Origin: Paenibacillus odorifer
GTDB lineage: Bacteria; Bacillota; Bacilli; Paenibacillales; Paenibacillaceae
Reading direction: 5' to 3'
Length of the DNA stretch: 64,000 bases
Assembly: GCF_000758725.1 (NCBI RefSeq)
Contig: NZ_CP009428.1
Location: 806,001-870,000, forward strand
Shown in pieces: positions 935 to 62,769 of this stretch. The position numbers and the translations under genes are program-made. A model generated the notes under the pieces. It searched no databases. It was not told the DNA's origin and saw nothing but the letters and a program-made list of their open reading frames with translations. Each line of letters starts with the position of its first letter. Position 1 is the first letter of the stretch.

Positions 935-1201
935 TCATTTGAATTACAGCGTAATATTCAGGGCATCTCACAAAAGGTTCTGATCCAGCAGCTTCGTGAA
1001 CTTGAGAGGGATGGGCTTGTCAAAAGATTCGTGTACCAGCAGATGCCGCCAAAAGTTGAATACAGCCTCACGGAATATGGCGTTACAGCCAATAAGATCG
1101 TGGATGTTATGTGTTCTTGGGGAAAAGAAAATATAAAAATAAGACAAAGACGAGGAGAAGAGATCGTCTTGTTGGAGGATACATGTCCTGGAGCAAATTA
1201 A
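935..1201 (+). pseudogene. HxlR-family regulator remnant, N-terminal half missing
   Basis: The frame encodes the second half of an HxlR winged helix: LQRNIQGISQKVLIQQ, LRELERDGLVKR, then VEYSLTEYG. The usual N-terminal part (Cys-Pro, LIGGKW motif) is absent, and the frame is closed by a stop at 932-934 directly upstream. About 88 codons remain against 105-120 in intact members. The 3' end overlaps the next gene by 19 bases. It was probably the regulator of the divergent reductase and is now inactivated by a deletion. Confidence 0.75.
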
Positions 1202-1752
1202 AGCAACAACTGGAGAGTTTTCTATGTCCTGCGTTATCCGGCAAGGTTGAATATCGTGCAAGCAGTTACCGTTATTTACCTGATAAATCAGGGAGCTGTT
1301 ATATTTCGGTAGATAAAAAGAACGTACTCAATATGAATGATAGAACTAGCTCAATCAGATGGTATCAGACGGAGCAGGAGATTAAGAATGATTCAGAACT
1401 CCAAATTCCAATCCGCCCTGAAGACATCGAAGCGGTTAGAAAAGATAGTAAAGGGATCATCCCGGAGGATCGTCTAATAGTCATTGCAAGAAGCAGAAAG
1501 ATATCAGAAGTTGCAAAGGAGCTTTTGTCAGCACAGACCTCATTAAGTAAATCGAATTTTATCGTTATAGCTAATAAGTTTCTATCTACTTCTATAGAGG
1601 AAAGCATAGAGAGTGATGATATCTTATTGAATATTCTGGCTTTAGTGGACAGACGGGTTGGGAAAAAGCGGATTTTAAACATGAGCGAGAAGATGCAGTT
1701 GAAGCATCCGATTGTGCAATATTTTTATGAACTACGGCGTAGTACATTGTGA
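1183..1752 (+). CDS. SF0329 family protein
   Basis: The 189-residue protein starts at an ATG preceded by GGAGG (1174-1178); a longer frame open from 1111 lacks such a site. The N-terminal WSKLKQQLESFLCPALSGKVEY, the YISVDKK block and the C-terminal LALVDRRVGKKRI block match my memory of the SF0329 family of Bacilli, whose function is unknown. No membrane segment or signal peptide is visible. It overlaps the HxlR remnant and sits 22 bases before a decayed metallo-hydrolase gene, so the three may have been one transcript. The family call is from recall and was not searched. Confidence 0.65.
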   Translation: MSWSKLKQQLESFLCPALSGKVEYRASSYRYLPDKSGSCYISVDKKNVLNMNDRTSSIRWYQTEQEIKNDSELQIPIRPEDIEAVRKDSKGIIPEDRLIVIARSRKISEVAKELLSAQTSLSKSNFIVIANKFLSTSIEESIESDDILLNILALVDRRVGKKRILNMSEKMQLKHPIVQYFYELRRSTL

Positions 1753-2161: not shown

Positions 2162-2261
2162 AGGGGAACCGTATCATTAGGGCGAAATTTTGTGAACTGT
2201 TAATTAAGCAGGTTTAGCAACAGGGAGTATTTTTAACTCATCGATAGAATTAGGTAATACA

Positions 2262-2270
2262 TGATATAAT
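2262..2270 (+). promoter_or_regulatory. Extended -10 promoter of the AbiF-like gene
   Basis: A perfect TATAAT (2265-2270) is preceded by TG one base upstream, giving an extended -10. No good -35 is visible 17 bases before it. The start codon lies about 36 bases downstream. Confidence 0.6.
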
Positions 2271-2306
2271 TGTCATAATGTTATCTAATAGGTGGTGAAT
2301 ATACTT

Positions 2307-3470
2307 TTGAAAAGAGCATCAACAAAAGAGTTATTGAAGTTTAAACAATCTTTAAGTCCACTTAAAAGAATAGAGGCTAAAGATGAAGTTGCAGCTACGG
2401 TAGAAGATTTACTGATTTTGAGCAAAGAACCTGTTTTGAATTTGGTAGAAAAGACGAAATTAAAAGAGAAGTTATCAGTAGAAGAGCAAATCGAGTATTT
2501 AAAATTTAAAGGCATTACTTTCAATTCCTATAATGAGTCATTAGCTAAAGAAATATTAACGGATCGAACTTACTATTATAAAGTTACTGCTTTCAGAAAG
2601 AATTTTAATAAAGATAGAGATAACAAATACACAAATGTTGATTTTTCAATTTTAAATGATTTAGCTACAATAGATATGCATTTTAGGTATTTATTTTTAA
2701 AGTTGTCTTTAGATATCGAACATAATATAAAATCTTTAATTATTCGCTTGATAACTGAGAGTGATGAAGATGGTTTTGAAATTATTGATGAGTATAAATT
2801 ATTTGAGTTAGAAAGTTATAGACGAAAACTTATAACAAAAGAACTAACGCTTGAAGTAATCGAAAATAAAATGAAAAAATATGAAACTATAGATAAAAAG
2901 TTATTGGAGGCATTTAAGTCTCAAAGAGATTATAGCTATGATTTGATTGTTAAAAGGAAAAACAAACCTTCCATATGGGTACTCATTGAATTAATGTCTT
3001 ATGGTCAATTATGTTTCTTTATTAATTTTTATGTTCAAAAAAAGAAATATAAATATAAAGAATTAAAACTGGCGAATAGCCTATTATTTGATTCGAAAAA
3101 TATTAGAGATTCCTCTGCACATAGTAGACCTATTATTTTTAATATTGTAGGGCCTAATCAATTTTTAATATCTAATGAAAAGCATATAAAATTGCAAGTT
3201 CGAAATTATATAACTCAAAATTGTAATATGAGTGATTCAAGTACTAATATTCTACTTAGAAATCTTAAAACACATGATATTACTGCCCTACTGTATTTAC
3301 ATGATTATTATGTTAAAGGAAGAATTTCAAGAGTTGAACGTAAAAAAGAATTAGTAAGTCTCATTAAAAGATGTAGATTGAAGAAATCCTTTTATGAAGA
3401 ACATTCAGAGTTTGGAGAGATAATGTACATTTTATTCAAACTGGTCAGAAATTATAAAGTGAAACCTTAA
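2307..3470 (+). CDS. Abi family (AbiF/AbiD-like, Abi_2) HEPN-domain protein
   Basis: This is a 387-residue member of the Abi_2 group of abortive-infection proteins, predicted HEPN-fold RNases or toxins acting in the cytosol. Marks of the family are EEQIEYLKFKGI near residue 60, the helix with LSLDIEHNIKSLI near 133-146, PSIWVLIELMSYGQL near 221-235, and the HEPN motif R-x4-H (Arg267-His272 in RDSSAH). I place the start at TTG 2307, nine bases after AGGTGGTG; an upstream GTG at 2292 lies inside that ribosome site. The gene is much more AT-rich than its surroundings, which suggests horizontal gain. A well-formed small RNA gene begins 8 bases after the stop. AbiF genes are known to occur beside a conserved RNA (abiF RNA motif), so the pair is probably one defence or toxin-antitoxin unit. 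Confidence 0.8.
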   Translation: MKRASTKELLKFKQSLSPLKRIEAKDEVAATVEDLLILSKEPVLNLVEKTKLKEKLSVEEQIEYLKFKGITFNSYNESLAKEILTDRTYYYKVTAFRKNFNKDRDNKYTNVDFSILNDLATIDMHFRYLFLKLSLDIEHNIKSLIIRLITESDEDGFEIIDEYKLFELESYRRKLITKELTLEVIENKMKKYETIDKKLLEAFKSQRDYSYDLIVKRKNKPSIWVLIELMSYGQLCFFINFYVQKKKYKYKELKLANSLLFDSKNIRDSSAHSRPIIFNIVGPNQFLISNEKHIKLQVRNYITQNCNMSDSSTNILLRNLKTHDITALLYLHDYYVKGRISRVERKKELVSLIKRCRLKKSFYEEHSEFGEIMYILFKLVRNYKVKP

Positions 3471-3477
3471 GATGTTA

Positions 3478-3506
3478 TTGACTTGACTATTTTACAGTGG
3501 TAAAAT
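3478..3506 (+). promoter_or_regulatory. Sigma-A promoter of the small RNA beside the AbiF-like gene
   Basis: TTGACT (3478-3483) and TAAAAT (3501-3506) are separated by exactly 17 bases. No coding frame follows; the promoter leads directly into a structured region that ends in a terminator. Confidence 0.8.
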
Positions 3507-3512
3507 TCAGTT

Positions 3513-3632
3513 TAGATGAAAGACCCTTCCGCAAGGTCGTCTGGAAAATAGGGTAACAGCTATTTCTAGATTAAAGGAATCAAAATCCTTGAAACAATTA
3601 TTACTTGTGTAATTGTTTCAGGGATTTTTTAG
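3513..3632 (+). ncRNA. Structured small RNA next to AbiF-like gene (abiF RNA-motif candidate)
   Basis: A transcript of about 120 nt is predicted from the promoter at 3478-3506 to a terminator. Hairpin A (3521-3542) pairs AGAC with GTCT and CCTT with AAGG around a CCGC loop. Hairpin B (3546-3565) pairs AAATAG with CTATTT around an eight-base GGUAACAG loop. UUUAGA near the 5' end can pair with UCUAGA at 3565-3570 to close both hairpins. TTCC in hairpin A could pair with GGAA at 3576-3579 as a pseudoknot. No ribosome site with a start codon is visible. The position suggests an RNA antitoxin or guide-like partner of the AbiF-like protein. Identity with the Rfam abiF motif is inferred from context. 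Confidence 0.7.
3582..3632 (+). terminator. Terminator of the small RNA
   Basis: A 19-bp stem joins 3582-3600 to 3610-3628 with one G-U pair and a 9-base loop, and ends in a T6 run. It is one of the strongest terminators in the window. Confidence 0.9.
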
Positions 3633-3716
3633 TATCTAAATTATTTATAGAACTTAACTTATCACTATCACGGAGAACCTTATCATAAGTAAGTGAGGTT
3701 TTGATTTGAAGGTAAA

Positions 3717-13471: not shown

Positions 13472-13615
13472 AGAAAAGACGTAAAATGCAAAGAGAGCCG
13501 TGCTGTAACACGACTCCCAAGGCAATAGCCGCTTTTAAGGGCGGTAGGCTTCAGCAAATAGGACACGACAGATAGACCGCATGCCTTTGTGAGTGGGCGG
13601 TCTATTTGCGTTTAT
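13472..13615 (+). ncRNA. Antisense RNA antitoxin of the holin-like toxin (RatA-like arrangement)
   Basis: A TATATT -10 (13460-13465) with a weak TTACGT -35 starts a transcript of about 140 nt. Hairpins CGTG/CACG and AGCCGC/GCGGT-AGGCT follow. The end is a terminator whose stem ATAGACCGC/GCGGTCTAT (13572-13580 and 13597-13605) runs into a T-rich tail. The 3' end overlaps the 3' end of the opposite-strand toxin gene by about 14 bases plus the shared terminator, as in the B. subtilis txpA/ratA system. No coding frame is apparent in it. Confidence 0.6.
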
Positions 13616-13682
13616 TGGACAGCAGCGCTACGATAAGCGAACCAAAGGTTAGCATAAGCATCATTGCTTCAAACACTGTCAC
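13602..13682 (-). CDS. Holin-like type I toxin peptide (26 aa)
   Basis: The GTG start has GGGAGGG just upstream. The peptide VTVFEAMMLMLTFGSLIV-ALLSNKRK has a short acidic start, one hydrophobic membrane span and a basic tail, the pattern of the putative holin-like toxins of Bacilli (Fst/TxpA-like). Such peptides damage the membrane unless an antisense RNA blocks their mRNA. A minus-strand promoter with an extended -10 (TGCTATACT near 13749-13757) lies about 70 bases upstream, and an antisense RNA gene converges on its 3' end. Apart from this module, 13376-14047 shows no recognisable feature. Confidence 0.8.
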   Translation of the reverse strand: MTVFEAMMLMLTFGSLIVALLSNKRK

Positions 13683-14047
13683 AAGGCATCCCTCCCTTCG
13701 GTGAGAGGTAGCCGACCGACCCTTTAAGCCTATTCTATTTGCTCCACCAGTATAGCATAATCGTTTGAAAGAGAATTAAGACTCTTGTCATAATACTCCC
13801 TAGGATTGGAGTAGTTTTCCATTTTCTCTCTTTGTCTCCGCAACTTTCTCCATTTTGAAACTTCCGTATCACATTTGCGATTTTTTGATTCCCAATTGTA
13901 GGACGTACCCCTCTTTCTAAATCTCTTCCTTGCGAATTCCCAAACATCCGATTTTCATTGGATTTTCAGTTTGGGTGTTTATAATGCTTTTTATGAATCG
14001 GGGCAGCGGATTGTAAAGGGCTTTCGATTGCGCAAAGGAGGTTTTCC

Positions 14048-62490: not shown

Positions 62491-62514
62491 GAAGCATGAA
62501 AATTTAAAATTAGA

Positions 62515-62690
62515 AATAGGTGCCAACTATGAATGTTGCGGAAGTACAATCATAGATTGGTTAAATGGAAAGCGGGTGTGAATCCCGCGCGGTCCCGCCG
62601 CTGTAAAAGAGGAGTCCTTGCAAAATGCCACTGGGAAACTGGGAAGGCAGCAAGGGTGATGATACTTGAGCCAGAATATCTGCCTTTTTC
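62515..62690 (+). ncRNA. Cobalamin (B12) riboswitch aptamer
   Basis: The class signature is plain: AAAGCGGGTGTGAATCCCGC, then GGTCCCGCCGCTGTAA (the B12-box region), a variable arm, GCCACTGGGAAACTGGGAAGGC, and GAGCCAGAATATCTGCC at the 3' side. The promoter is just upstream, and a terminator hairpin at 62770-62804 is the likely switch element. It controls the secreted protein that follows and should turn it off when cobalamin is plentiful. Confidence 0.93.
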
Positions 62691-62769
62691 TGTTACACCA
62701 TCAAACTCTACGATCGATAGAGAGGTGCTTGAATAGTGTTTGCCAGCTAGTATTGTGGTTCACTATCTT

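Follow-up and report, generated by a model that had tools for sequence, protein, structure and literature searches.

An Abi_2 HEPN protein and adjacent small RNA of Paenibacillus odorifer from a branch of the AbiD/AbiF family not distinguished before

Described Abi_2 and RNA-antitoxin systems

Cas13 is considered to have arisen from among the Abi_2 HEPN proteins, for which the abiF RNA is assumed to be the RNA partner. In the AbiFCd/RCd22 system of C. difficile, an Abi_2 HEPN protein is accompanied by an RNA of approximately 100–130 nt with two hairpins, a sigma-A promoter and a terminator, one RNA per toxin; this RNA is a proven antitoxin that acts by direct protein binding, and toxicity requires the HEPN motif residues R202 and H207 (PMC12373285). 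The RNA lies upstream of the toxin gene, in its 5' UTR, and carries two motifs of the abiF RNA family, RF03085 (PMC12373285). PbAbiF, deposited together with its ncRNA (PDB 8VZ6), forms a homodimer in which each monomer has one RNA (reviewed in PMC12737573). Type III ToxIN systems resemble what we propose below in having a ribonuclease toxin held by an RNA, but the toxin belongs to another family and the RNA is an upstream tandem repeat under a single promoter, while CRISPR-Cas13 is linked to these proteins by the HEPN ribonuclease relationship described in the literature. In Staphylococcus aureus, the small RNA sau-5971 (RsaL, srn_0880; Rfam RF02397) is a Northern-validated bona fide sRNA at HG003 361904–362002, a class defined by having its own promoter and terminator (PMC5826253), and it has been described as lying beside SA0355 and rpsR, highly expressed and processed from the large SA0355 3' UTR (PMC3386247). 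We found no link between sau-5971/RsaL and an antitoxin role in the searchable literature.

We analysed a stretch of 64,000 nt (the window) from the forward strand of the 6.8-Mb genome of Paenibacillus odorifer (NZ_CP009428.1, GCF_000758725.1, positions 806,001–870,000), in which a gene for an Abi_2 HEPN protein is followed by a small RNA gene. Compared with RCd22, this RNA is situated downstream of the toxin gene, has its own promoter and is unlike RF03085. Compared with type III systems, it is a single unit, downstream and separately promoted, and the upstream repeats, shared promoter and attenuating terminator by which such systems are recognised are absent. Compared with Cas13, the protein has a single HEPN domain per chain and the RNA no variable guide, and no CRISPR family was matched in the window at the gathering threshold. 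The pair belongs to a branch of the AbiD/AbiF family that had not been set apart before and whose RNA is unlike the abiF RNA, and we consider the pair likely to be a two-part module of toxin and RNA antitoxin, type III-like but with the gene order reversed.

The Abi_2 gene and small RNA of Paenibacillus odorifer

The protein gene occupies positions 2307–3470 (+), starts with TTG and encodes 387 residues; Pfam, PADLOC, alignment, tree and fold search all assign its product to the Abi_2 (AbiD/F-like) HEPN proteins. A ribosome-binding site (AGGTGG) is found at 2290–2295, and the consensus scan, as the only basis, gave a candidate promoter with an extended −10 element, TCGATA-18-TATAAT, at 2241–2270 (+), a stretch that is well conserved across the four orthologous loci described below. 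Abi_2 (PF07751) was the sole domain matched by Pfam (68.9 bits, E 9e-19, cut-off 25.6), placing the protein inside the family, and alignment located the catalytic motif RDSSAH at residues 267–272 (3105–3122, +), confirming the 387-residue Abi_2 protein with an R-x4-H motif that a preliminary description of the locus had reported. The sequence RDSSAH fits the HEPN ribonuclease motif R-[NHD]-x3-H, and its R, A and H were invariant in an alignment of 16 proteins; the D at the second position, where most relatives have N, has been reported as an allowed residue. When an AlphaFold2 model of the protein (mean pLDDT 77) was searched against the PDB, the single match below E 0.001 was PbAbiF with its ncRNA (8vz6, E 7e-4, prob 1.0), suggesting that the monomer fold matches a subunit of the PbAbiF dimer. 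By sequence, neither the window protein nor a profile of its clade (clade A, below) matched any PDB entry, and neither matched PbAbiF at E≤1. No match was obtained in a viral collection, whether the protein alone or the RNA pattern was used as query.

For the small RNA, the consensus scan identified a separate promoter at 3478–3506 (+), TTGACT-17-TAAAAT, in which TG precedes the −10 hexamer. It is of the extended sigma-A type, agrees with the consensus at 10 of 12 positions and begins 7 nt past the toxin stop; the same feature recurs at the 3' end of clade A genes. The RNA itself is predicted to extend from 3513 to 3632 (+), approximately 120 nt, its existence being supported by conservation, co-occurrence with the gene and a positional counterpart, sau-5971/RsaL, that is a detected RNA. 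Its 5' leader, AGAUGAAA (3514–3521, +), places GAAA 11 nt past the −10 hexamer. RNAfold then predicted hairpin 1, with a GACC/GGUC stem (3522–3538, +), hairpin 2 (3539–3571, +) and an intrinsic terminator of 20 bp followed by a U tract (3582–3628, +), the last predicted to be common to the toxin mRNA and the small RNA. Hairpin 1 has the same position in other clade A RNAs, and hairpin 2 is invariant in sequence among orthologs. The complete small RNA gene and its two hairpins thus bear out the preliminary description, and the terminator does so too except for its length, given there as 19 bp; for the closing stem and pseudoknot also suggested there, a non-rigorous look revealed no support. The whole RNA gave a z of −4.3 and the terminator alone −7.6, while the two small hairpins alone (about −1 to −1.6) were not unusually stable, and their support is therefore comparative.

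An AUG at 3516–3518 opens a frame of 11 codons within the RNA, and the stretch might accordingly be read as a gene for a small peptide, or else as an unrelated small RNA that lies beside the toxin by chance. The frame is open in the orthologs, as expected because the RNA is conserved, but the AUG lacks a Shine-Dalgarno sequence in front of it, and at that place GGAAA, with no AUG, is found in most clade A RNAs. A chance neighbour is, moreover, at odds with the strict co-occurrence of RNA and gene: among 100 congeneric genomes, the RNA and a close ortholog of the gene were both present in 3/3 and both absent in 97/97 (Fisher P 6e-6). We therefore regard either form of this explanation as most unlikely.

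Close orthologs of the toxin gene were found in Paenibacillus anaericanus, one of the close relatives of the window genome (locus L002, with the same arrangement at L009), and in genomes G081 (L003) and G072 (L004), with protein identities to the window of 90, 92 and 83% for L002, L003 and L004, respectively. The RNA lies directly 3' of the gene in all three. Over the 63 nt of leader and hairpins, L002, L003 and L004 differ from the window at 0, 0 and 2 positions, as compared with 10, 11 and 28% of the fourfold sites of the toxin gene (binomial P 1e-3, 7e-4 and 4e-7, respectively), so that in these sequences the RNA core is conserved beyond the synonymous sites of the gene. Compensatory changes, for which the preliminary description had proposed to look in the hairpins, were found in the terminator stem, where a C-G pair has become U-A in L002 and a G-C pair U-A in L004 with the 20-bp stem kept; the hairpins themselves are near-invariant in the orthologs.

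This near-invariance bears on the proposal that the RNA is a guide or target sensor of a primitive Cas13-like system, in which pairing with phage RNA would activate the HEPN nuclease. The grouping of Cas13 HEPN domains with AbiD/F (PMC12165695) and the predicted match of the window protein to the PbAbiF fold speak for such a relationship. However, the locus holds a single RNA unit with neither repeats nor a variable stretch, its 63-nt core hardly changes across four loci, unlike a reprogrammable guide, and the characterised AbiF RNAs act as antitoxins. A programmable guide is thus very unlikely, and of the kinship with Cas13 put forward in the preliminary description the shared fold stands and anything beyond it does not. 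The other role named there, that of antitoxin partner, is supported as likely, by inference from the sister clade (clade B).

The GC content is 25% over the toxin-RNA locus as compared with 39–45% in its flanks, in keeping with the AT-rich DNA noted earlier and with a horizontally acquired look; the surroundings form no defence island. The end of rlmH is the attachment site of staphylococcal SCC elements, and a pattern search found copies resembling it as direct repeats on either side of the pair, GAACCGTATCATTAGGG at 2166–2182 (+) on the left and GAACCTTATCATAAGTA at 3675–3691 (+) on the right (2 matches in the window, 0.19 expected). The block seen on the left also follows the rlmH stop codon in L003, where the cassette is placed directly behind an intact rlmH gene. 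The window genome's own rlmH is approximately 860 kb away, so the window cassette lies off the native site despite its repeats. Judged by the repeats and the placement in L003, the pair may have spread as a minimal cassette carried as a passenger. Elsewhere in the window, an SF0329-family protein (217 bits) is encoded at 1186–1749 (+) amid apparent fragments of other genes, the pieces at approximately 950–1200 and 1775–2160 being judged by reading of the sequence alone. What looks like a type I toxin-antitoxin locus of the BsrG/SR4 kind is present at 13495–13742 (−), with an Rfam BsrG match of 75.7 bits and a hydrophobic peptide of 26 residues, MTVFEAMMLMLTFGSLIVALLSNKRK, at 13602–13682, and a cobalamin riboswitch (99 bits) at 62501–62701 (+).

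Two clades of Abi_2 proteins and the RNA downstream of clade A genes

Abi_2 homologs were collected from genomes, plasmids, phages and viral contigs, the genomes sampled being those of Bacillota, and 64 non-redundant proteins were placed in a tree by a quick IQ-TREE search with SH-aLRT as the only support measure. The tree was split into clade A (n=47), which includes the window protein, and clade B (n=17) by a branch with an SH-aLRT of 100; the two sets had been named beforehand according to the best BLAST query, and each was recovered in the tree as one side of this branch. Clade B holds every RF03085-associated gene in the tree, including AbiF of phage phiC2. The characterised AbiFs also fall there, namely AbiFCd and, judged by homology, probably PbAbiF, which matched clade B at E 1e-33; PbAbiF is the best structural match to the window protein, while its sequence matches only clade B. 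The PADLOC AbiD model scored above 300 bits for clade B and 52–90 bits for clade A, the window protein being at 52. Despite this split in sequence, the predicted fold appears to be common to both clades.

The distribution of RF03085 followed the same division. In the same genus (G099, G017 and G010) and in other Bacillota, it was situated some tens of bases 5' of another set of Abi_2 genes. In the window, cmscan gave no RF03085 match at the gathering threshold, and next to the toxin gene, including the RNA locus, a local cmscan gave none even at E≤10; 20 other clade A loci also lacked it at the gathering threshold. When the window and the RNA stretch were searched against Rfam, the only matches beside the gene were weak and to unrelated families. 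The preliminary description had taken the protein for a member of the canonical AbiF group and the RNA for the abiF RNA, and the shared Pfam family and fold would suit that identification. It was rejected on the absence of RF03085, which occurs upstream of genes of the other clade, on the separate and fully supported clade of the window protein and on its PADLOC score of 52 as compared with more than 300 bits, and we give it next to no probability. In genome G795, a clade A gene at C1:1610268–1611182 (−) is followed, approximately 770 bases downstream, by a weak RF03085 match (34.6 bits) at 1609461–1609498 (−), which may possibly belong to a neighbouring AbiF of clade B.

Nearly all clade A genes with readable downstream DNA are directly followed by a small element of one plan, which comprises a GAAA leader (mostly AAGGAAA or GAGGAAA), a hairpin of 5–7 bp, a second hairpin and a U-tailed terminator; at Clostridia-type loci the second hairpin is fused with the terminator. 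Promoters were scored over the last 45 nt of each gene and the first 75 nt beyond it, with the 95th percentile of shuffled sequences as threshold. The test was passed by 33 of 47 clade A genes, as compared with 4 of 141 in-gene controls and 2 of 17 clade B genes. Typically, the −35 box (TTGACT or TTGACA) lies inside the codons for the I/V-D residues conserved at the C terminus, with the −10 box around or just past the toxin stop; the window protein has a longer tail, and its entire promoter is past the stop. A GAAA was present 9–14 nt past the −10 box in 25 of the 37 promoter-positive clade A loci, including the window, as compared with a mean of 2 and a maximum of 7 in 300 shuffles, a test that measures the strength of a motif first noticed on these same sequences and is not an independent discovery of it. 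Terminators were found in 32 of the 37.

In eight RNAs of the Lactobacillales/Bacillales type, 4 of the 7 pairs of hairpin 1 had changed on both sides, and the share of paired cells was 96%, as compared with 80% in shuffles. A covariance model of this hairpin (R1), from which hairpin 2 was left out since MAFFT could not align it, recovered its own members and close kin, and it gave no match to the window RNA (approximately 3 bits), sau-5971 or most members outside the training set; R1 consequently does not define the class fairly. The window RNA is instead tied to the class by its protein clade, its place, its 3' promoter, the GAAA leader at the fixed spacing and the shared plan of hairpins and terminator, all of which it has.

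At the Staphylococcus loci, the element directly after the Abi_2 gene is sau-5971 (RF02397, 108–117 bits). As in the window, a clade A gene is followed by a promoter, a GAAA leader, two hairpins and a terminator, here with an RNA that has been detected experimentally, but the hairpin sequences are different and the RF02397 model misses the window RNA. In the staphylococcal loci L118, L119, L112, L114 and L111 the RNA is kept beside frameshifted or truncated Abi_2 genes, a remnant expected of toxin-antitoxin decay if cells can do without the toxin and the RNA does no harm. In another Staphylococcaceae genome (G1078, locus L108), a single damaged Abi_2 gene is surrounded by three RNA copies (1318–1385, 2425–2522 and 2611–2701), with one copy on its upstream side, possibly reflecting RNA amplification or tandem systems.

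The position of the RNA within the toxin 3' UTR, together with the reported origin of its S. aureus counterpart by processing of a long 3' UTR (PMC3386247), would also fit an RNA that controls the toxin mRNA, as an antisense of type I kind or a 3' UTR stability element, and does not bind the protein. Pairing with the toxin translation start region was rejected, since 156 of 300 shuffled sequences were as strong, and antisense control is unlikely because complementarity did not exceed chance. A dedicated promoter is kept across clade A, and the sister clade acts by protein binding. Control of the mRNA is on these grounds improbable. Taken together, we think it probable that Abi_2 HEPN toxins have two different RNA partners, the abiF RNA situated 5' in the RF03085 clade and a second class situated 3' of the toxin, widespread in Bacillota and their phages and commonly with its −35 box within the C-terminal I/V-D codons, of which RsaL/sau-5971 would be the antitoxin RNA in S. 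aureus.

Proposed mechanism and significance

Since the protein is homologous to the sister clade, we infer for the window pair the logic of a HEPN toxin with an RNA antitoxin, and with it, by analogy, the dimer, RNase activity, RNA-protein binding, neutralisation and triggering. The sequence basis consists of the protein family and fold, the catalytic motif, the promoter, RNA conservation, the terminator, obligate co-occurrence and the clade A arrangement. In the proposed mechanism, the Abi_2 protein would act as a HEPN ribonuclease, presumably a dimer as is PbAbiF, that cuts RNA and halts growth. The small RNA, whose promoter lies at the 3' end of the gene, would use its leader and tandem hairpins to bind the protein and keep the active site closed. 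Toxin transcripts would stop at the same terminator, and because each would contain the RNA as its 3' UTR, every toxin mRNA could be a source of antitoxin; the dedicated promoter would keep the RNA in excess without making toxin. If the RNA supply failed, through shut-off of transcription by a phage or loss of the cassette, the RNA would decay first and the freed nuclease would bring about abortive infection or addiction.

The protein family and its fold were already known, as was the concept that AbiF has an RNA antitoxin; as far as the searchable literature goes, a second clade with a 3' RNA, a promoter within toxin codons and the assignment of sau-5971/RsaL are new. If clade A, as a whole sister clade, has another RNA at another place, RNA control of Abi_2 nucleases would be older or would have arisen twice, and structural studies of clade B alone would miss a large share of the family. 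The proposal would also give the abundant S. aureus small RNA sau-5971/RsaL a testable function, and provide an annotation rule for genes labelled 'Abi family', namely to seek an RNA past the stop codon.
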